The position numbers and the translations under genes were made by a program. From the NCBI GenBank assembly GCA_030616165.1, contig JAUWXV010000060.1:1-16532 (forward strand): DNA of 16,532 nt, in the 5' to 3' direction. Each line of letters starts with the position of its first letter. Positions within the stretch are counted from its first letter, which is position 1. The notes beneath the pieces were generated by a model. It was not told the DNA's origin, did no database searches, and was given only the letters and a program-made list of their open reading frames with translations. The DNA comes from a bacterium. Its GTDB lineage: Bacteria; SM23-31; JAUVVT01. Positions 118-16,263 of the stretch are shown here, one piece after another.

Positions 118-148
118 TGTAGGGGCGAACGGACCGTTCGCCCCTACA
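118..148. repeat. REP-like palindrome
   Basis: A 31-base near-perfect palindrome has 15-base arms (118-132 and 134-148) around a single A. It contains GTAG-GGGCGAACGG on one side and the reverse complement on the other. It lies about 70 bases beyond the stop codon of the kinase-propeller gene and has a counterpart at 2979 beyond the second copy, so it belongs to the duplicated unit. It could also act as a transcript-end hairpin, although no T-run follows. Confidence 0.7.
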
Positions 149-216: not shown

Positions 217-2298
217 TCAGCGTTTGTTTCCGGTATTAAAGAGACTTTTCAGTTCCTCGAACCAATTTAAAACCACATTGATTTGACTTGTGGTCGATTC
301 CTCCGCAGTCGCGGTCGTGACCATCAGGAACCTATCGCCATCGGGATGAACATCGTACTGTGGAGTATTCACACTAGAAAAGTACTGTCCTTCGAACAGT
401 ACCTGCGGCGTCCCCAATTTTAATATTGGCTTGGCCTGAAAAGAGACAGCCATCATCTTATCCCCATTTCGGTAGAAAAGTTCCTGTCCGTCTGGAGCCC
501 ACATCGCTTCTGTACCGCCAGCAGTTGAAACCTGCCACTCACGCTCCGGACCGGGATAGGATTTTATATATACTTCATTCTGACCTGATTTATTCGATAC
601 ATATGCGAGCCAGTGACCGTCAGGAGAAAACATCGCCGAACGTTCATCAGCGGATGTATCGAGGAAAGGCGATGCGGTGCTGTCCTGCATATTAAATACA
701 AATATGTCTCTCTGGGTAGTCGGATTTGTTTCATAGAATGCTATCTTATTATCTGGCGACCAGGAGCCGCCCCATAGAGGGTATTCACCTGACAGAATAA
801 GTTCCGCCTCTCCAATGCCGTCCGACCGTTTCCAGTAAAGATTATTAATTCCATCGCGGTTAGAAGAAAACGTCAGCCGCTCACCGTCTGTTGTCCAGCA
901 TTGGGAACTATTGATGGATCCTTTAAAGGTAAACGGGGTTTGCGTCCCACGCTCTACATCATAGATCCAGATGTTTGTGCCACTCTCATCAACAATGACA
1001 AAAGCCACCCATCTACCATCCGGAGATATGCGGGGAAACCGGTATGGGCGCTTATCAGCCGTCATAGGTTTGGCAATTCCCTTACGGTCTACCCAAACAA
1101 GGGCTCGTTCAACCATCCCCGCCCCACCGCCGGGGAAATAGACAAGCGAGCCGTTGTCAGAAAAACTAAAACTCGCAGCACCGCGCACCTGTACTGAGAC
1201 TCCTTCAATGAGTGGAATCGGAGAACCTGTTACCTTTAACTGCTGAAGATTAAACGGCACCGCCATTATTCTACCCGGCAGGGCATAGGCGATGTGGCCA
1301 GTTGATGTATAACGGGCATTGGCGCCTCCTTCGTTAAGAAGGACCCACCGCTCGTTTGTTTCTAAGGAAAGTACAGCGATGCGGGCATTATCAAGACTTA
1401 CTCCTTTCCAGATTGTGAAGAGCACTGTCTTACCACCCGGAAGCATCTCCGGCCAGAAATGCCCGCGCTCGCCTTTCTCAGCGTCGAGTGTTGATATGAC
1501 TTCTGGAATGCCCTCAGAAGCCGAAACCCGTGATAGCCCCGAACCCGACATTCCGAAAATTATATTGTCATCGGGTCCCCAGGTCGCACCACAGAAGTAA
1601 GTGCCTCCGACTTCGCAGATGGTCAGTGGACTTCCGCCCGTAAGCAGAACCTTCTTGAGTTTACCATCTGCATGGAAACCTACCCATCTATTATCGGGGG
1701 AGAAGAAAGGGTGTCTGGCACCCTCAGTCCCGGGGAGTGGGGTGGATTCGAACTGAGCCATTGGGTGCAGGTAGAGCTGACTGCCTTTTCCTTCGTCAGC
1801 AACATACACCATGTACCTGCTGTCAGGAGAGATGGCAATATTATTTCCATTACTAGAAAATACCAACCGTTCTGTGGTCGGGAGATTAATTACAGAACGG
1901 TTAACCTGCTGTGGCGGAAGTGTGGGTATAGGCTTTAGATACCATACGGCAATGACAGCTATGATTACAGCAATGACAATCATCAATGCTGCAATGCTCC
2001 ACGGCACAGCCCGGCGCCAGCGCGAAGGTTGTTGAGCAGCCTTTTCTGCGATCGTTGTAGTTAAAATTTTGGACGTATCAATCGACTTCAAATCAACCGC
2101 TTTTAAATCCACCGGCACCTCGTCCACGTGCTGGTAGCGAGCATCAGGCTCTTTCGCCATCGCTTTGGCAGCAATCCCATCCAATGCTATCGGCACACCG
2201 GTCCGCAGGGCAGTCAGGGGTTCAGGTTCCACGTTTAAGATTGAGTAAACCATTGCGGTCTCATATTCACCCTTGAAAGGCAGCTGCCCACTAACCAT
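217..2298 (-). CDS. C-terminal part of split kinase-propeller receptor
   Basis: This is the downstream fragment of a transmembrane serine/threonine kinase. It starts at the ATG two codons after the amber that ends the upstream fragment (2302-2895). By homology to the intact neighbour it begins inside the kinase C-lobe; residues 1-60 include the late conserved arginine in KEPDARYQ. An RRAVPW stop-transfer motif and one membrane segment (about 101-121) follow, then roughly 560 residues of TolB/PD40-type propeller repeats seen as ISPD, FSPDG and WAPDG motifs. The propeller would lie outside the cytoplasmic membrane and bind an unknown ligand. The frame is open throughout, so the lesion is recent, suppressed, or a sequencing error. 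No Shine-Dalgarno is evident at this ATG, so I doubt it is translated independently. Best read as part of a pseudogene of 217-2895. Confidence 0.7.
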   Translation of the reverse strand: MVSGQLPFKGEYETAMVYSILNVEPEPLTALRTGVPIALDGIAAKAMAKEPDARYQHVDEVPVDLKAVDLKSIDTSKILTTTIAEKAAQQPSRWRRAVPWSIAALMIVIAVIIAVIAVWYLKPIPTLPPQQVNRSVINLPTTERLVFSSNGNNIAISPDSRYMVYVADEGKGSQLYLHPMAQFESTPLPGTEGARHPFFSPDNRWVGFHADGKLKKVLLTGGSPLTICEVGGTYFCGATWGPDDNIIFGMSGSGLSRVSASEGIPEVISTLDAEKGERGHFWPEMLPGGKTVLFTIWKGVSLDNARIAVLSLETNERWVLLNEGGANARYTSTGHIAYALPGRIMAVPFNLQQLKVTGSPIPLIEGVSVQVRGAASFSFSDNGSLVYFPGGGAGMVERALVWVDRKGIAKPMTADKRPYRFPRISPDGRWVAFVIVDESGTNIWIYDVERGTQTPFTFKGSINSSQCWTTDGERLTFSSNRDGINNLYWKRSDGIGEAELILSGEYPLWGGSWSPDNKIAFYETNPTTQRDIFVFNMQDSTASPFLDTSADERSAMFSPDGHWLAYVSNKSGQNEVYIKSYPGPEREWQVSTAGGTEAMWAPDGQELFYRNGDKMMAVSFQAKPILKLGTPQVLFEGQYFSSVNTPQYDVHPDGDRFLMVTTATAEESTTSQINVVLNWFEELKSLFNTGNKR

Positions 2299-2301
2299 CT
2301 C

Positions 2302-2895
2302 CTACAACACCACACCCAGCGACCAGATGTCCGAGCGATGGTCCACGTGCTCTCCACGAGATTGCTCCGGTGACATATATGCGATGGTGCCTAACGTTGT
2401 TCCTTCTTTTGTCAATCCCGTCCTGGCTGCCATTTTTGCCAGACCAAAGTCCATGATTTTCGCCTGACCTTTCTCTGTCAGCATCACATTGGCGCTCTTG
2501 ATGTCCCGGTGTGTGATGCCTTTTTCATGTGCGGCATTTAGACCATCTGCAACCTGACAGGCAATTTTGACGGCTTCTTTTATTTTCAGCGGTCCAGAAT
2601 TTATCTTCTCCTTCAAAGTCTGACCTTCGATGTATTCCATCGCGATAAAGATTTCGCCCTCCACTTCATCGATTTCATAGATTGTGGCAATATTCGGATG
2701 GTTCAGGGAAGCCGCCGCCTGTGCCTCACGAATGAAACGCGCCTTTTCCTCCTCGGTACCCAGGGCATTTGAGGGCAGAAATTTCAGTGCGACGATGCGC
2801 TTGAGTTTAGTATCCTCGGCTTTATACACCACCCCCATCCCACCTTCACCGATTTTTTCGAGAATTTTATAATGGGATATAATTTCGCCTATCAT
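2302..2895 (-). CDS. N-terminal kinase part of split receptor (amber-truncated)
   Basis: This is a Hanks-type (PknB-like) serine/threonine kinase N-terminus of 197 residues. Visible are the glycine loop GEGGMG (16-21), the ATP lysine in VALKF (K38), the helix-C glutamate in REAQ (E57), the catalytic loop HRDIKSAN (129-136), DFG (149-151), SPE (175-177) and the subdomain IX aspartate in SDIW (D189). It stops at TAG (2302-2304), where the intact paralogue has TAT for Tyr198, so subdomains X-XI and everything after are lost. A GGAG about nine bases before the ATG is the ribosome site and is identical in both copies. It differs from the paralogue at only four of 197 residues (5, 22, 29 and 90). 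A truncated kinase lacking the end of the C-lobe would probably be unstable. Readthrough would restore an 892-residue receptor. Confidence 0.8.
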   Translation of the reverse strand: MIGEIISHYKILEKIGEGGMGVVYKAEDTKLKRIVALKFLPSNALGTEEEKARFIREAQAAASLNHPNIATIYEIDEVEGEIFIAMEYIEGQTLKEKINSGPLKIKEAVKIACQVADGLNAAHEKGITHRDIKSANVMLTEKGQAKIMDFGLAKMAARTGLTKEGTTLGTIAYMSPEQSRGEHVDHRSDIWSLGVVL

Positions 2896-2978
2896 ATATT
2901 ATTTCTCCAATTTTTTGGATTTTATTCATCCAATTCCCATTTTAATAGATTTTAAAATTTATTCATAAATTTTATTTT

Positions 2979-3006
2979 GTAGGGGCGAACGGTCGTTCGC
3001 CCATAC
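2979..3006 (+). repeat. REP-like hairpin
   Basis: GTAG (2979-2982) is followed by a 9-bp stem, GGGCGAACG (2983-2991) and CGTTCGCCC (2994-3002), with a two-base loop. It is the copy-2 counterpart of the palindrome at 118-148. Here the outer CTAC has decayed to ATAC while the stem is kept. Confidence 0.7.
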
Positions 3007-3075
3007 ATCTTTTCGATAATCTTATACGCCACAGGCGGATAATGTGAAATTGTCTCACAGGGCATAAATCTACCC

Positions 3076-5742
3076 TCAGCGTTTGTTTCCGGTATTAAAG
3101 AGACTTTTCAGTTCTTCAAACCAATTTAAAACGACATTGATTCTGTTTACTGTCGTCGATTCCCCCTCAGTCTTAATCATCAGGAACCGCTCGCCATCGG
3201 GATGAATGTCATATCCTGCTCTATATGTTGATGAAAGGTAGCGCCCTTCAAACAGGAGTTGAGGCGTTCCCTGTTTAAAAACTGGCCTGGTTTCAATTGC
3301 AACAACCATCATCTTATCCCCATTAAGGTAGAACAACTCACGTCCGTCCGGCGCCCACACCGGTCCAATTCCGCCATCATTCGAGATCCGGTATTTGGCA
3401 CCCGTTACCGGATACGGTTGTACAAATACTTCATACCTCCCAGTCTCATTCGACGTATATACTATCCACTCACCGTCAGGCGAAAATACGGGCGAAGTTT
3501 GGTTAGCATCTGTAGCAACAAATACCGATGTGGAGTCGTCCTTTATTGACAGAATACATATATCCCTTGAGGTCATTGGATTTATTTCATAGAAAGCAAA
3601 TGATTCCCCGTCCGGAGACCATGAGGCGGCACTAGTAAATTGATCTCTCTTCAATAACAGCATCTCCTCTCCACTGCCATCTGCCGGTTTCCAGCAAATG
3701 TTGTATGTTCCATCCTTGCTATATCTATACGCCACTCGCTTGCCCTCAGGATCCCAAACAGGTTCTCGGGTGCTATTATTATGGAAAGTCAATTGGCTAA
3801 GTGTACTGCTCTCTATATTATAAACCCAGATACTTATTAATTCCTCATCATCAGTGATCGCTAGGGCAACCTGCCTGCCATCGGGCGAGATGCGGGGGGT
3901 TGAATATCGATTCTGTTCCTTCGTCAGCGGTGTGGCATTTCCACTGCGATCTACCCACACCAGGGTTCTATCGGCAGTGCTCGCTGAGCCGCGGATATAC
4001 ACAAGTGACCCTTCGCCGGAAATGTTGAAGTTCGCAAAACCTAATATACTTATTACTACATTATCAATAATCGGAACAGGAGAATCTGTCACTATGAGAT
4101 TGCTAATATCAAACGGCACTGCCATGAGACCCCCAATTCTTGCATATACAATGTGGCCAGTTGATGCATAATGGGCACTGCTTCCTCCTTTAAGTAAACT
4201 TTGCCAATCTTTGGTCTCAAACGAGAATACTGCAATACGCGCATTTTTAAAAAAACTTGTTGAATGTAACCTTGAAGGCCATATTGTAAAGAGCACCCCC
4301 TTACCGCCTGGCAGTATTTCAGGCCAGCGATGCGTGGTAGCACCGTCCGGAGTGGTTAAGGGCTGCGGCGTACCCCCGGAAGCCGAGACTATCATAAGGC
4401 CGCTACCCTCTGATCCTAAAATTATGTTATCTTCATTTCCCCATGCTGCTCCTCCCCAATCAGTCCCTACTTCACAAATAATCACGGGATTGCCGCCCGT
4501 GAGCAGCACCTTCTTGAGTCTGCCACCTGCATGAAAACCCACCCACCGGCCATCGGGGGAGAAAAAGGGGTTGGCGGCGCCATCTGTGCCTGAGAGGGGG
4601 ACTGCATCGAGTTGATCCATATTGCGAAGATAGAGCTTCCTGCTGTCACCATCGTTTGCGACATACACTAATTGTGTACCATCAGGCGAGATGGCAAGTC
4701 CTTGGTTTACAAGGCGTATATTCACTGGAAAATTAATTGCAAATTCCTTAACGTGTTTAGGCGCAGGTGGACCCTGTTTTGTTATAAACCAGACAGCAAC
4801 AGCAGTAATTATGGTGCTAACAACCAACATCGGCACAACGATTTTCCACGGCACAGCCCTGCGCCAGCGCGAAGGTTGTGGAACAGTCTTTTCTGTAATC
4901 GTTGTAGTTAAAATTTTGGACGTATCAATCGACTTCAAATCAATTGCTTTTAAATCCACCGGCAGTTCGTCCACGTGCTGGTAACGAGCATCAGGCTCTT
5001 TCGCCATCGCCTTGGCAGCAATCCCATCCAATGCTATCGGCACACCGGTCCGCAGGGCAGTCAATGGCTCAGGGTCAACGCTCAAAATTGAGTAAACCAT
5101 CGCCGTCTCATATTCGCCTTTGAAAGGCAACTGCCCGCTAACCATCTCATAAAGGACTACACCCAGCGACCAGATGTCCGAGCGATGGTCCACGTGCTCA
5201 CCGCGAGATTGCTCAGGTGACATATATGCGATGGTGCCTAACGTTGTTCCTTCTTTTGTTAATCCCGTCCTGGCTGCCATCTTTGCCAGACCAAAGTCCA
5301 TTATTTTTGCCTGACCTTTCTCTGTCAGCATTACGTTGGCGCTCTTGATATCCCGGTGTGTGATGCCTTTTTCATGCGCTGCATTTAGACCATCTGCAAC
5401 CTGACAGGCAATTTTGACGGCTTCTTTTATTTTCAGCGGTCCAGAATTTATCTTCTCCTTCAAAGTCTGCCCATCGATATATTCCATCGCTATAAAGATT
5501 TCGCCTTCCACTTCATCGATTTCATAGATTGTGGCAATGTTCGGGTGGTTCAGGGAAGCCGCCGCCTGTGCTTCACGAATAAAACGCGCTTTTTCCTCCT
5601 CGGTACCCAGGGCATTTGAGGGTAGAAATTTCAGTGCGACGATGCGCTTGAGTTTCATGTCCTCGGCTTTATAAACAATGCCCATACCGCCTTCACCGAT
5701 TTTTTCGAGGATTTTATAATGGGATATAGTTTCGCCTATCAT
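3076..5742 (-). CDS. Transmembrane Ser/Thr kinase with TolB-like propeller
   Basis: An intact 888-residue receptor kinase. The cytoplasmic Hanks-type kinase (about 8-270) has GEGGMG (16-21), K38, E57, HRD (129-131), DFG (149-151), SPE (175-177), DIW (189-191) and the late arginine near R253. A basic patch, RWRRAVPW, precedes one membrane segment (about 299-320). Residues about 335-885 are repeated PD40/WD40-like blades (ISPDG, FSPDG, WSPDG, WAPDG), predicted to face the periplasm. The domain order suggests phosphorylation signalling in response to an external or envelope ligand; neither ligand nor substrate can be inferred. The ATG follows GGAG at a nine-base gap. Kinase and C-terminal tail (INVVLNWFEELKSLFNTGNKR) are nearly identical to the neighbour, while the propeller is much more diverged. 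Family assignment is secure; the role is not known. Confidence 0.92.
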   Translation of the reverse strand: MIGETISHYKILEKIGEGGMGIVYKAEDMKLKRIVALKFLPSNALGTEEEKARFIREAQAAASLNHPNIATIYEIDEVEGEIFIAMEYIDGQTLKEKINSGPLKIKEAVKIACQVADGLNAAHEKGITHRDIKSANVMLTEKGQAKIMDFGLAKMAARTGLTKEGTTLGTIAYMSPEQSRGEHVDHRSDIWSLGVVLYEMVSGQLPFKGEYETAMVYSILSVDPEPLTALRTGVPIALDGIAAKAMAKEPDARYQHVDELPVDLKAIDLKSIDTSKILTTTITEKTVPQPSRWRRAVPWKIVVPMLVVSTIITAVAVWFITKQGPPAPKHVKEFAINFPVNIRLVNQGLAISPDGTQLVYVANDGDSRKLYLRNMDQLDAVPLSGTDGAANPFFSPDGRWVGFHAGGRLKKVLLTGGNPVIICEVGTDWGGAAWGNEDNIILGSEGSGLMIVSASGGTPQPLTTPDGATTHRWPEILPGGKGVLFTIWPSRLHSTSFFKNARIAVFSFETKDWQSLLKGGSSAHYASTGHIVYARIGGLMAVPFDISNLIVTDSPVPIIDNVVISILGFANFNISGEGSLVYIRGSASTADRTLVWVDRSGNATPLTKEQNRYSTPRISPDGRQVALAITDDEELISIWVYNIESSTLSQLTFHNNSTREPVWDPEGKRVAYRYSKDGTYNICWKPADGSGEEMLLLKRDQFTSAASWSPDGESFAFYEINPMTSRDICILSIKDDSTSVFVATDANQTSPVFSPDGEWIVYTSNETGRYEVFVQPYPVTGAKYRISNDGGIGPVWAPDGRELFYLNGDKMMVVAIETRPVFKQGTPQLLFEGRYLSSTYRAGYDIHPDGERFLMIKTEGESTTVNRINVVLNWFEELKSLFNTGNKR

Positions 5743-5779
5743 ATATTATTTCTCCAATTTTTTGGATTTTATTCATCCA

Positions 5780-13854: not shown

Positions 13855-13898
13855 TTTTTTAACTTTTTCAGACTAATTCGGGGACACAATACTAATTA

Positions 13899-13927
13899 TT
13901 GACAAAGGTAGTATATATGTGTATATT
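13899..13927 (+). promoter_or_regulatory. Element-borne sigma70 promoter
   Basis: TTGACA (13899-13904), a 17-base spacer and TATATT (13922-13927). The ATG of the transposase remnant follows at 13933, so a transcript starting seven or so bases after the -10 would be leaderless or nearly so. The identical arrangement occurs at 15959-15987 in the second element. The promoter reads toward the TIR gene. Confidence 0.55.
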
Positions 13928-13932
13928 TGACT

Positions 13933-13989
13933 ATGGCACGACTAGCTCGAGTTATAGCTCCCGGTTATTCGCAAATTCTGCGTCACAAT
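13933..13989 (+). pseudogene. RAYT/Y1 transposase N-terminal remnant
   Basis: The ATG opens with MARLARVIAPGY, the typical start of REP-associated Y1 (IS200-like) transposases, which continue with a PHHVTQRGN-like motif. Here the reading becomes SQILRHN and the frame ends at 14025 after 30 codons. The catalytic HUH and tyrosine motifs are absent. The matching remnant at 15993 differs by two synonymous substitutions over the first 12 codons. Confidence 0.65.
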
Positions 13990-14043
13990 ACCTATTTCTT
14001 GAAAATACAGTTAAAAAGTTATTAATTTTCTTATGCCACGATT

Positions 14044-14066
14044 GTAGGGGCGAACGGCGTTCGCCC
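14044..14066 (+). repeat. REP hairpin inside element A
   Basis: GTAG (14044-14047), GGGCGAACG (14048-14056), one G, CGTTCGCCC (14058-14066). The hairpin lies in the same 258-base element as the RAYT remnant, which directly links this REP family with its likely mobilising enzyme. Confidence 0.7.
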
Positions 14067-14198
14067 TCTAAAAAAATGTGTAGAAAAACAAAAAAATAAA
14101 AACAAATAAATATTGTATCCCCCAATTTCCTCACCGGGAAAATTATCATAACCCATTGTTATTATTAAATATTAATCTAAATAAAAAAAATAATTTAC

Positions 14199-14305
14199 TT
14201 GACTTTTAATAGATAAAACAGTAAGTTAGTGTTAAGTTATCACTCAATTCTTAATGAATAATAAACGTAATAAAGTTGAGTTACTTTATAGTTGGGTATC
14301 ATAAT
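14199..14305 (+). promoter_or_regulatory. Candidate promoters of the TIR gene
   Basis: Two candidates precede the TIR gene. The first is TTGACT (14199-14204), 17 bases, TAAGTT (14222-14227), with a weak -10. The second is TTGAGT (14276-14281), 18 bases, CATAAT (14300-14305), which would start transcription about 20 bases before the ATG and is the better placed. An imperfect hairpin with AAC and GTT ends (14264-14293) lies over the second -35. Confidence 0.4.
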
Positions 14306-14329
14306 AGAAACGATTTCAGGAGAATTTGA

Positions 14330-15418
14330 ATGAAGAAACAACTTTCCGCTTTCATTAGCTATTCGCACAGTGACCGAGACCGAATTGTTCCGATTGCGAG
14401 TTACTTGGGACGTCTCGGTGTGCGTGTTTGGATGGACACCAAGGAGTTGTCTGCTGGCCAAGCTATTGTCGAGCAGGTAAGCAAGGCAATTGCCAGTTCT
14501 GATCTATACATCGTTGCTATATCGCCATCTGCCTTAGCTTCCTCGTGGGTAAATCATGAGTTGAATACGGCTCTCTCGTTGGAAATTACCCAAGGTCATC
14601 CAAAGGTGCTGCCAATCATCGTCGCAAAAGCGGATATACCACTAGCAATTCAAAGTAGGCTCTATATTGACATGACCGGTACTTTGGATGCTAGCAAGGC
14701 TACTCTTCGGAAGGCTGTTAAGACGTATCTTCCGGATTTTAAAACTGAAGAAAAGGAGCTGCCGAAAAAAGAGAAGCCTGAGCTAATTCTCGCTAGCGTG
14801 GTTCTTCAATTGCGATCAGAAACAAGTAAGTACTTTGGAGGTATGCACGGATATGAGTATACAAAAGAGGAAGTTGAGGAGGAGGCGGTCCAATTAATCA
14901 AGACTCTAAGGAGAAAGGCCAACGGAATTCTTCTCAATTTCTCATCAGCTTCTGAAATGGATTTCAGTAGCTTTCGCCCCAAGTTTCCGAACGGAGAACT
15001 GTCCGAGTCTACTAGTGATTCAACAGGAGATTTAGTTGGCACTTTTACCAAAGAAGCTGTAATAGATGTGGAAATAGTTAACCCTGATGAGGAAAAACTC
15101 AATCAGCTCGTTTCTTCTAAGCTAGAAAGTCTAGGGGTATCTAAAGCGGTATATTCATTCCTTGTCTCACCTCCAATAGAAGGTCTCGCCCAACAAGCAC
15201 TTGAACGTCTGCAGAATGAATATGTCATCCTTGGGTGGGATCCAGATGACGGCGCTGATGTGGAACTCCCAGATGATTTGAAACTATCAGTAGCATGCAC
15301 AGAAGAAAGAATACGTCTTGGGATTGAGACAAAATATCGATTTCAATTTGAGAAACGAGCAAAAGAATTCTCTGTGCGACAATTTGTCGTTTGGTTAATA
15401 GGAATGGAGAAGAAGTAA
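14330..15418 (+). CDS. TIR-domain effector with unrecognised C-terminal domain
   Basis: A 362-residue protein with no signal peptide. Residues 4-135 form a TIR domain: FISYSHSDRDR (8-18), a strand with VWMDTKELSAGQ (33-44), DLYIVAISPSAL (58-69) and SSWVNHEL (71-78). The last has the W-x3-E arrangement, so Glu77 is a candidate NAD-cleaving residue as in bacterial TIR NADases. KVLPIIV (92-98) is a typical late strand. A charged linker with lysine and glutamate (138-150) leads to about 210 residues (150-362) that I do not recognise; a TIR fused to a sensing domain is common in antiphage defence. AGGAG (14318-14322) seven bases before the ATG fixes the start. Base composition is visibly richer in G+C than the flanks, which suggests transfer. 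An attC-like hairpin starts five bases after the stop. Defence is inferred, not shown. Confidence 0.85.
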   Translation: MKKQLSAFISYSHSDRDRIVPIASYLGRLGVRVWMDTKELSAGQAIVEQVSKAIASSDLYIVAISPSALASSWVNHELNTALSLEITQGHPKVLPIIVAKADIPLAIQSRLYIDMTGTLDASKATLRKAVKTYLPDFKTEEKELPKKEKPELILASVVLQLRSETSKYFGGMHGYEYTKEEVEEEAVQLIKTLRRKANGILLNFSSASEMDFSSFRPKFPNGELSESTSDSTGDLVGTFTKEAVIDVEIVNPDEEKLNQLVSSKLESLGVSKAVYSFLVSPPIEGLAQQALERLQNEYVILGWDPDDGADVELPDDLKLSVACTEERIRLGIETKYRFQFEKRAKEFSVRQFVVWLIGMEKK

Positions 15419-15422
15419 AAAT

Positions 15423-15495
15423 GCACAACAAAGCGCTCCACCTGACCGCTATTCTGCTGCCATCTATAACGGCAGGTGAGCTTGGAAGTTAGGGC
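15423..15495. other. attC-like imperfect hairpin (possible integron cassette site)
   Basis: Just after the TIR stop codon, GCACAAC (15423-15429) faces GTTAGGG(C) (15488-15495), like the outer R boxes of attC. Between them the arms pair as AAG-CTC-ACCTG-CC (within 15431-15447) with GG-CAGGT-GAG-CTT (15471-15483), with unpaired bases CG, C and A on one arm only. One-sided extrahelical bases are characteristic of attC sites folded for integrase IntI. No integrase lies in the window. It could instead be a terminator, but no T-run follows and the one-sided bulges favour attC. Confidence 0.5.
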
Positions 15496-15528
15496 ACATA
15501 ATTTTTATCACAACATTAACAAATATAC

Positions 15529-15557
15529 TTGACTTTTTTATCTTATTTTAATACAAT
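15529..15557 (+). promoter_or_regulatory. Sigma70 promoter of the MNT gene
   Basis: TTGACT (15529-15534), a 17-base spacer and TACAAT (15552-15557), five of six matches in each box. The predicted start lies near 15564, giving a leader of about 20 bases before the ATG at 15585. Confidence 0.6.
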
Positions 15558-15584
15558 ACAAATAAAATAAAGAGAGTGACTACG

Positions 15585-15878
15585 ATGAGACTAAATCAAA
15601 GTAACTTACAAAAGATAAAAAATTATTTTAAAGATAAACCAGTAAAAAAAGCTTATCTTTTTGGTTCCTACTCCCGAAATTCTGCAGACGAAGATAGTGA
15701 TTTAGACATTATTGTCGAATTAGACTATTCACAACATATCGGTTTAAAATTTGTTAAAATGCAACTTGATTTACAAGAAATACTTCAAACGAAAGTCGAC
15801 CTTCTTTCAGAAAAAGCGATTTCCAAATATATTCGCCCTTATATTGATAATGAAAAAGAATTAATTTATGAGAAATAA
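15585..15878 (+). CDS. MNT-type nucleotidyltransferase (HEPN/MNT antitoxin)
   Basis: A 97-residue minimal nucleotidyltransferase. Motifs: GSYSR (27-31), DSDLDI with Asp39 and Asp41 as metal ligands, and VDLL with Asp72 as the third acid. In HEPN/MNT toxin-antitoxin pairs this protein neutralises the HEPN ribonuclease, in a studied case by adding AMP to a toxin tyrosine. I chose the ATG at 15585 because AAAGAGAG lies eight bases upstream; an in-frame GTG at 15576 would add three residues. The start codon of its HEPN partner overlaps its end (15868), a usual sign of translational coupling, but the partner is truncated, so the antitoxin is orphaned. It has its own promoter, so it probably does not depend on the TIR gene. 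Confidence 0.85.
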   Translation: MRLNQSNLQKIKNYFKDKPVKKAYLFGSYSRNSADEDSDLDIIVELDYSQHIGLKFVKMQLDLQEILQTKVDLLSEKAISKYIRPYIDNEKELIYEK

Positions 15879-15936
15879 TATCGGTGACAAAGCAAGACTT
15901 CATCATATTCTTGATGCCATATCAGAAATTTACTAA
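15868..15936 (+). pseudogene. HEPN toxin gene remnant, cut by the mobile element
   Basis: An ATG overlapping the last 11 bases of the MNT gene opens MRNNIGDKARLHHILDAISE, the usual beginning of HEPN (DUF86-like) toxins. After GAA ATT the sequence becomes that of the mobile element at about 15931-15932, and a TAA created by the element (15934-15936) ends the frame at 22 codons. The R-x4-6-H catalytic motif of HEPN RNases, near the C-terminus in this family, is therefore missing. I do not see the rest of the gene after the element, so its 3' part is lost. Confidence 0.7.
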
Positions 15937-15992
15937 TTCGGGGACACAATACTAATTATTGACAAAGGTAGTATATATGTGTATATTTAATT

Positions 15993-16049
15993 ATGGCAAG
16001 ATTAGCTCGAGTTATAGCTCCCGGTTATTCGCAAATTCTGCGTCACAAT
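15993..16049 (+). pseudogene. RAYT/Y1 transposase N-terminal remnant
   Basis: MARLARVIAPGYSQILRHN is encoded, followed by an unrelated frame that ends at 16163. Identical in protein to the remnant at 13933, with codons for Arg3 and Leu4 changed synonymously. Confidence 0.65.
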
Positions 16050-16104
16050 ATTTATTTCTTGACAATATTGCTAAAAAAATCATACATTTTCGTATGCCAC
16101 GATT

Positions 16105-16130
16105 GTAGGGGCGAACCCCTGTGTTCGCCC
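16105..16130 (+). repeat. REP hairpin inside element B
   Basis: GTAG (16105-16108), stem GGGCGAAC (16109-16116) and GTTCGCCC (16123-16130) with a six-base loop. Same place in the element as the REP of copy A, but with a larger loop. Confidence 0.7.
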
Positions 16131-16263
16131 TCTAAAAAAACGTGTAGAAAAACTAAAAAATAAAAACAAATAAGTATTGTGTCCAAAAATTTTACACTCC
16201 AATAATACGGGTTTTCGTCGCCACAGTCAGGCGTAAATCATTTTCAAACAAGGAGAAACAGAT

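Follow-up and report, generated by a model that had tools for sequence, protein, structure and literature searches.

Three related receptor kinase genes with a common kinase part and very different propeller sensors in one bacterial genome

The tandem kinase genes and their surroundings

The window, i.e. the whole stretch of 16,532 nucleotides that was analysed, carries a tandem pair of genes, A and B, arranged head to tail on the minus strand within its first 6 kb (Table 1). Both are Hanks-type Ser/Thr kinases with one transmembrane (TM) helix and two beta-propellers. The kinase motifs GEGGMG (P-loop), VALKF (the VAIK lysine), HRDIKSAN (HRD) and DFG are present in A and B as well as in a third copy, C, that is described below, and the Pfam profiles gave matches of 180.9 bits for Pkinase and 89.6 bits for PD40.

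The AlphaFold model of gene B (mean pLDDT 80; 9 sequences) consists of a kinase, a helix at residues 302-321 and two runs of beta-strands. Structure comparison of its kinase part with PknB, Stk1 and PknA gave Z scores of 31-34, and the second propeller taken alone could be aligned with 2ojh over 254 residues, which places it with the six-bladed TolB/PD40 propellers. The sensor of B most likely consists of two consecutive propellers in this model, the first one being predicted from its strands only. The hydropathy peak of the TM helix starts at residue 299-302, the helix as a whole covering residues ~300-321, and we infer that the sensor is external to the membrane and the kinase cytoplasmic. 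PknB/Stk1-type kinases (PDB 9ymt, 5u94, 1o6y) have the same kinase fold, the same catalytic motifs and the same layout of kinase, TM segment and external sensor; however, they have PASTA repeats where A, B and C have two PD40 propellers. The PASTA kinase model NF033483 scored 335 bits, below its cut-off of 450, with a match that was confined to the kinase. A, B and C are not PASTA kinases.

Table 1. Features of the tandem kinase genes and their flanks (positions in the window).
Feature	Position	Strand	Remarks
Gene A, Hanks-type Ser/Thr receptor kinase	217-2895	-	892 codons; ORFs 2302-2895 and 217-2298 with in-frame TAG between; Pfam Pkinase and PD40
TAG, codon 198 of gene A	2299-2301	-	Tyr codon elsewhere (TAT in B, TAC in C)
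Gene A, kinase and juxtamembrane module, codons 1-299	1999-2895	-	Near-identical across A, B and C
Gene A, TM helix and first propeller	1156-1998	-	dS saturated vs B and vs C
Gene A, second propeller	298-1155	-	dS 0.41 vs C, ~1.3 vs B
Gene A, C-terminal tail (26 codons)	220-297	-	Alike in every copy
Gene B, intact 888-aa receptor kinase, architecture as gene A	3076-5742	-	ORF, Pfam, AlphaFold model
Gene B, kinase and juxtamembrane module, codons 1-299	4846-5742	-	Fold match to PknB, PknA, Stk1
Gene B, TM helix (residues ~302-321) and first propeller	4015-4845	-	Hydropathy, model
Gene B, second propeller	3157-4014	-	Residues 589-861 match TolB-like structure 2ojh, Z 29.7
Gene B, C-terminal tail	3079-3156	-	Final 21 residues as in gene A
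GTAG-type REP palindrome of 29 nt, 3' of gene A	119-147		Repeat search
Intergenic REP palindrome (B/A) with one imperfect arm	2978-3007		Repeat search, alignment
Palindromic REP-like element (70 nt) preceding gene B; dispersed in genome	5779-5848		Genome search
Gene A leader, in-frame remnant (NPKNWRNN) of RAYT transposase C-terminus	2896-2930	-	
Gene B leader, same RAYT C-terminal remnant	5743-5778	-	

Gene A with its in-frame TAG is either a pseudogene, a split gene or the product of a sequencing error. Recoding of TAG was considered and set aside; the kinase and propeller frames are nearly all open without recoding throughout the genome.

Repeats of the REP/RAYT type, a known class (PMC3733652), are found around the genes. 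GTAG-type REP palindromes adjoin A, B and C, and in-frame remnants of the RAYT C-terminus form the leaders of these three and of C211 and C118. An intact RAYT end, matching NF047646, is found at C316. There the end of the transposase ORF overlaps the start codon (ATGA) of a short 5' stub of the same kinase, and further stubs of this kind (23-75 codons) are found elsewhere in this and two related genomes (L079:17-470 in G000 C316, L080:1719-1800 in C159, L124 and L125). Several receptor kinase genes have a GTAG-type REP in the ~100 nt that precede them; besides the three in the window, the palindromes concerned are at C211:10841-10913 and C32:6480-6552. Copies with perfect arms number only three in the genome, all of them beside kinases, and the same 70-nt REP type lies ahead of the kinase of G001 C421.

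At the other end of the window, positions 13872-16192 include genes for a TIR-domain protein (14330-15418) and for an MntA-like nucleotidyltransferase (15576-15878), bracketed by direct repeats of ~250 nt that are 88-93% alike in pieces. The region has the appearance of a repeat-flanked defence or toxin-antitoxin cassette.

Distribution of the divergence in the three copies

Four substitutions (I5T, V22I, T29M and E90D) separate A and B over the first 197 residues, the final 21 residues are identical and the 76 nt past the stop codon contain 6 differing positions, as counted on the alignment. The propellers are ~50% identical, with several indels. In all this the preliminary description of the pair, made from the sequence alone, was accurate; its boundary at residue 197, however, is only the length of the ORF that precedes the TAG (2302-2895), and the near-identity extends to codon 299.

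The synonymous divergence (dS) was calculated by the NG86 method, in which values above 1 are saturated. Between A and B it was 0.29 for codons 1-299 (bootstrap 0.22-0.38) vs 1.35 for the first propeller (1.00-2.11) and 1.33 for the second (0.96-1.99), i.e. the intervals of the kinase and propeller segments do not overlap. In 50-codon windows the values ran between 0.16 and 0.47 up to codon 300 and were then mostly above 0.9. The breakpoint was located at 299|300 on third positions (permutation p = 0.001) and, on codons for the same amino acid, best between 298 and 301 (p = 0.0005). As this coincides with the onset of the hydropathy maximum, the likeness of A and B stops where the TM helix starts. 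For B and C the break is at 306|307 on third positions (p = 0.001), the same-amino-acid codons giving p = 0.0005. The A/B pattern is thus confirmed as real and not due to chance by the permutations for A/B and B/C and by the separate dS intervals of the segments. Both synonymous and amino acid divergence jump at the domain borders, which simple ageing after duplication, as had been argued at the outset, cannot explain, and a uniform dS along the genes, named beforehand as the contrary outcome, was not found.

A separate observation concerns the juxtamembrane stretch, codons 228-299 (window 1999-2214 and 4846-5061), which has the lowest dS of all, 0.04-0.12 in every pair and below that of the kinase core. 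It directly precedes the break.

The search of the genome for further members, which had been proposed together with the pair, yielded copy C, intact and flanked by unrelated genes on another contig (G000 contig 261, 22227-24899). The kinase of C is 97-99% identical to those of A and B. Its first propeller resembles neither of theirs (dS 1.3-1.9), and its second propeller is near to that of A only (78% identity) and far from that of B. In numbers, the A/C dS was 0.35 in the kinase, 1.28 in the first propeller and 0.41 in the second (bootstrap 0.31-0.53); the B/C values were 0.23 for the kinase and 1.9 and 1.24 for the propellers. On third positions A and C have breaks at 299|300 and 586|587 (permutation p = 0.001). 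On same-residue codons the break inside the propellers falls at 563-572 (p = 0.001), i.e. at residues 553-577 in B numbering, just ahead of the start of propeller 2 at ~589, so the switch is close to the border between the two propellers. When A/C was scanned on same-residue codons for one tract of low divergence, significance was not reached (p 0.07). The informative sites favoured B+C in the kinase (32 vs 22 and 16) and A+C in the second propeller (98, 92 and 50 vs ~15-20).

Since the kinase of C is common to all three genes and its second propeller is common to A only, the exchange of modules can be seen directly. Such a mosaic is the result of recombination, and constraint or faster evolution does not produce it. 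In other words, three related genes have almost the same kinase part and very different sensors, and whole modules passed from gene to gene by exchange or copying, as opposed to plain drift. The likeness of the paralogues at synonymous sites within one sharp-edged tract fits partial concerted evolution by gene conversion. The preliminary description had left the choice between gene conversion, exchange of the sensor part and its fast evolution. The first two belong to the right class; for A/C, fast evolution by itself can be dismissed, because the second propeller is synonymously as similar as the kinase, with the first propeller saturated.

A history without recombination, i.e. a single old duplication after which the propellers could diverge freely and the kinase was held back by purifying selection or by constraints on codons or RNA, is very improbable and already refuted by the non-uniform dS and the A/C mosaic. 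The dN/dS of the kinase is indeed far below that of the propellers, and kinases of this class are normally more conserved than propellers. Yet the synonymous divergence shifts 4-fold at one codon, the second propeller of A/C has a low dS without being under strong constraint (dN 0.135), the 3' flank is alike although non-coding, and the kinase tree is in conflict with the propeller tree.

Recurrence in related genomes

Trees were built for a set of 14 propeller kinases, six of them from genome G030. The six G030 kinases form one kinase clade (100/99) whereas their propellers do not, and the A, B and C propellers, which form a clade of their own (100/99), group with two of them. The kinase data reject a grouping of A, B and C with G030_L095 (AU p 1.7e-9) and the propeller data reject a single G030 clade (p 0.006); note that the propeller trees have long branches and that the groups were picked after viewing the trees. 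On same-residue codons alone the G030 pairs fell short of significance (p ~0.1), and the trees were relied on instead.

A related tandem pair in G006 (L099, C75) has an isolated conversion tract of ~140 nt at residues 58-104, both kinases being otherwise saturated; 3/41 same-residue codons differ inside the tract vs 118/187 outside (p 0.01, the lowest value that the test can give). In G011, the DNA of the kinases L104 and L105 is 90% identical as far as residue ~200-226, beyond which the two are unrelated, with the break inside the C-lobe of the kinase and not at a domain border. A second trio in the source genome (C38, C118 and C262), composed of a kinase, an FlgO-like domain and TPR, shows a weaker pattern in which the kinase is alike, the TPR middle is saturated and the last 36-45 codons are alike again. 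No near-identical kinase pair was found in G033, G034, G029, G014, G017, G025 and G013 (best 57%). The pattern is recurrent but not universal.

The source genome is a metagenome-assembled genome (MAG) of 343 contigs, ~90% complete, and the kinases share exact runs of up to 89 nt, so one may ask whether strain variants or paralogues were joined at shared k-mers. We consider such an artefact highly unlikely, as the exact runs at the A/B breakpoint are only 15-19 nt, a single contig carries both A and B in head-to-tail order, the kinases differ at ~7% of sites along their whole length, and like patterns occur in three other assemblies.

Probable recombination between resident paralogues

Homologous recombination between A, B and C, either as gene conversion or as module replacement, is probably what produced the pattern. 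The three genes would be resident paralogues of one receptor family, whose members combine a PknB-like kinase in the cytoplasm with a single TM helix and two propellers on the outside. Through ectopic gene conversion or a module-sized replacement, the kinase modules and 3' ends of the copies would have stayed alike or become so; their propellers would be either old and divergent or replaced. The kinase is presumably the part that is being overwritten. Exact runs of at least 25 nt are almost confined to it (11-14 per pair vs 0-1 per propeller half), so conversion can go on there and hardly elsewhere, and it may be self-maintaining in the kinase and halt at the domain border. The isolated tract of the G006 pair likewise favours gene conversion, as does the separate clade of the A, B and C propellers. 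As far as the sequences suggest, the outcome would be that different ligands are read by one common kinase output.

The order of the kinase dS values (B/C < A/B < A/C, with overlapping intervals) hints that the B kinase was copied from the C lineage. The similar dS of kinase and second propeller in A/C, on the other hand, is just as compatible with a recent duplication after which the first propeller was replaced. No sister species with orthologous A, B and C loci that could polarise the events was found among 6 genomes of the class and phylum.

A possible though rather less likely course is a recent whole-gene duplication (dS ~0.3-0.4) after which propellers were swapped in from divergent homologues, i.e. 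lost paralogues or transferred DNA, by crossing over within the conserved kinase and the conserved tail. Two replacement events suffice for it, the alike A/B segments (kinase, tail and 3' flank) appear equal in age, and both the A/C values and the G011 pair, with its kinase common up to residue 226, agree with it. However, a donor propeller was found neither in the genome nor in 40 relatives, and the propellers of A, B and C are a clade of their own, as resident descent predicts. Targeted hypermutation of the propeller by a diversity-generating retroelement (DGR) or similar would explain why the divergence is limited to the sensor part; it is extremely unlikely, given that the divergence affects all codon positions, with indels, over ~570 codons that include the TM helix, and that the window has no reverse transcriptase or template repeat. 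No recombinase was found in the window either.

A system for diversifying ligand sensing, to which the pair had been likened, is not borne out, as the family has no more than three copies, of which one is broken, and no silent cassettes, shared propellers or, in the window, recombinase were found. Extra propeller DNA and silent cassettes were absent from the genome, an absence that is not final at ~90% completeness, and no propeller of A, B or C was found on another kinase in it, contrary to the sharing between different kinases that had been envisaged; the most similar propeller kinase apart from these three has identities of 55% over the kinase and 21% over the propeller. A dedicated sensor-diversification system, be it cassette shuffling or a DGR, is not supported, and the case appears as ordinary recombination on a modular receptor. 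The REP/RAYT repeats may have helped to duplicate receptor units. The more far-reaching idea, that REP/RAYT-bracketed kinase units move and recombine as modules, repeatedly re-pairing one resident kinase output with new propellers, with transposase nicking at the kinase-adjacent REPs as the driving force, is speculative and in our opinion improbable.

Segmentally variable receptors and gene conversion between paralogues are already known kinds. The paralogous membrane receptors Tlp2, Tlp3 and Tlp4 of Campylobacter jejuni have identical signalling domains and ~30% identical sensory domains, and some are pseudogenes (PMC9769880). They resemble A, B and C in the constant signalling part, the divergent sensors and the broken copies, but they are methyl-accepting chemoreceptors with dCache sensors, not propeller Ser/Thr kinases, and were attributed to duplication and divergence (PMC9769880). 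Segmentally variable genes, such as sensor histidine kinases, combine a conserved kinase with a highly variable sensing segment, the two clustering differently (PMC387263); they are defined across genomes at the protein level, whereas A, B and C have synonymous breakpoints within one genome and form a three-module mosaic. Concerted evolution of prokaryotic genes by gene conversion makes paralogues within a genome alike at synonymous sites (PMC6053082), but the cases concern mostly genes of stable complexes, taken as whole genes, while here one module is kept alike. The open-access literature that was searched gave no earlier description of such a pattern for propeller-type Ser/Thr kinases.

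The locus is a clean example of a bacterium that keeps one signalling output while the sensors diverge or get exchanged, with recombination edges on or near the domain borders. The wider pattern would be that kinases group by genome and propellers by type. The kinase-domain trees of bacterial receptor kinases do not track the sensor, and function transfer by kinase similarity can mislead.
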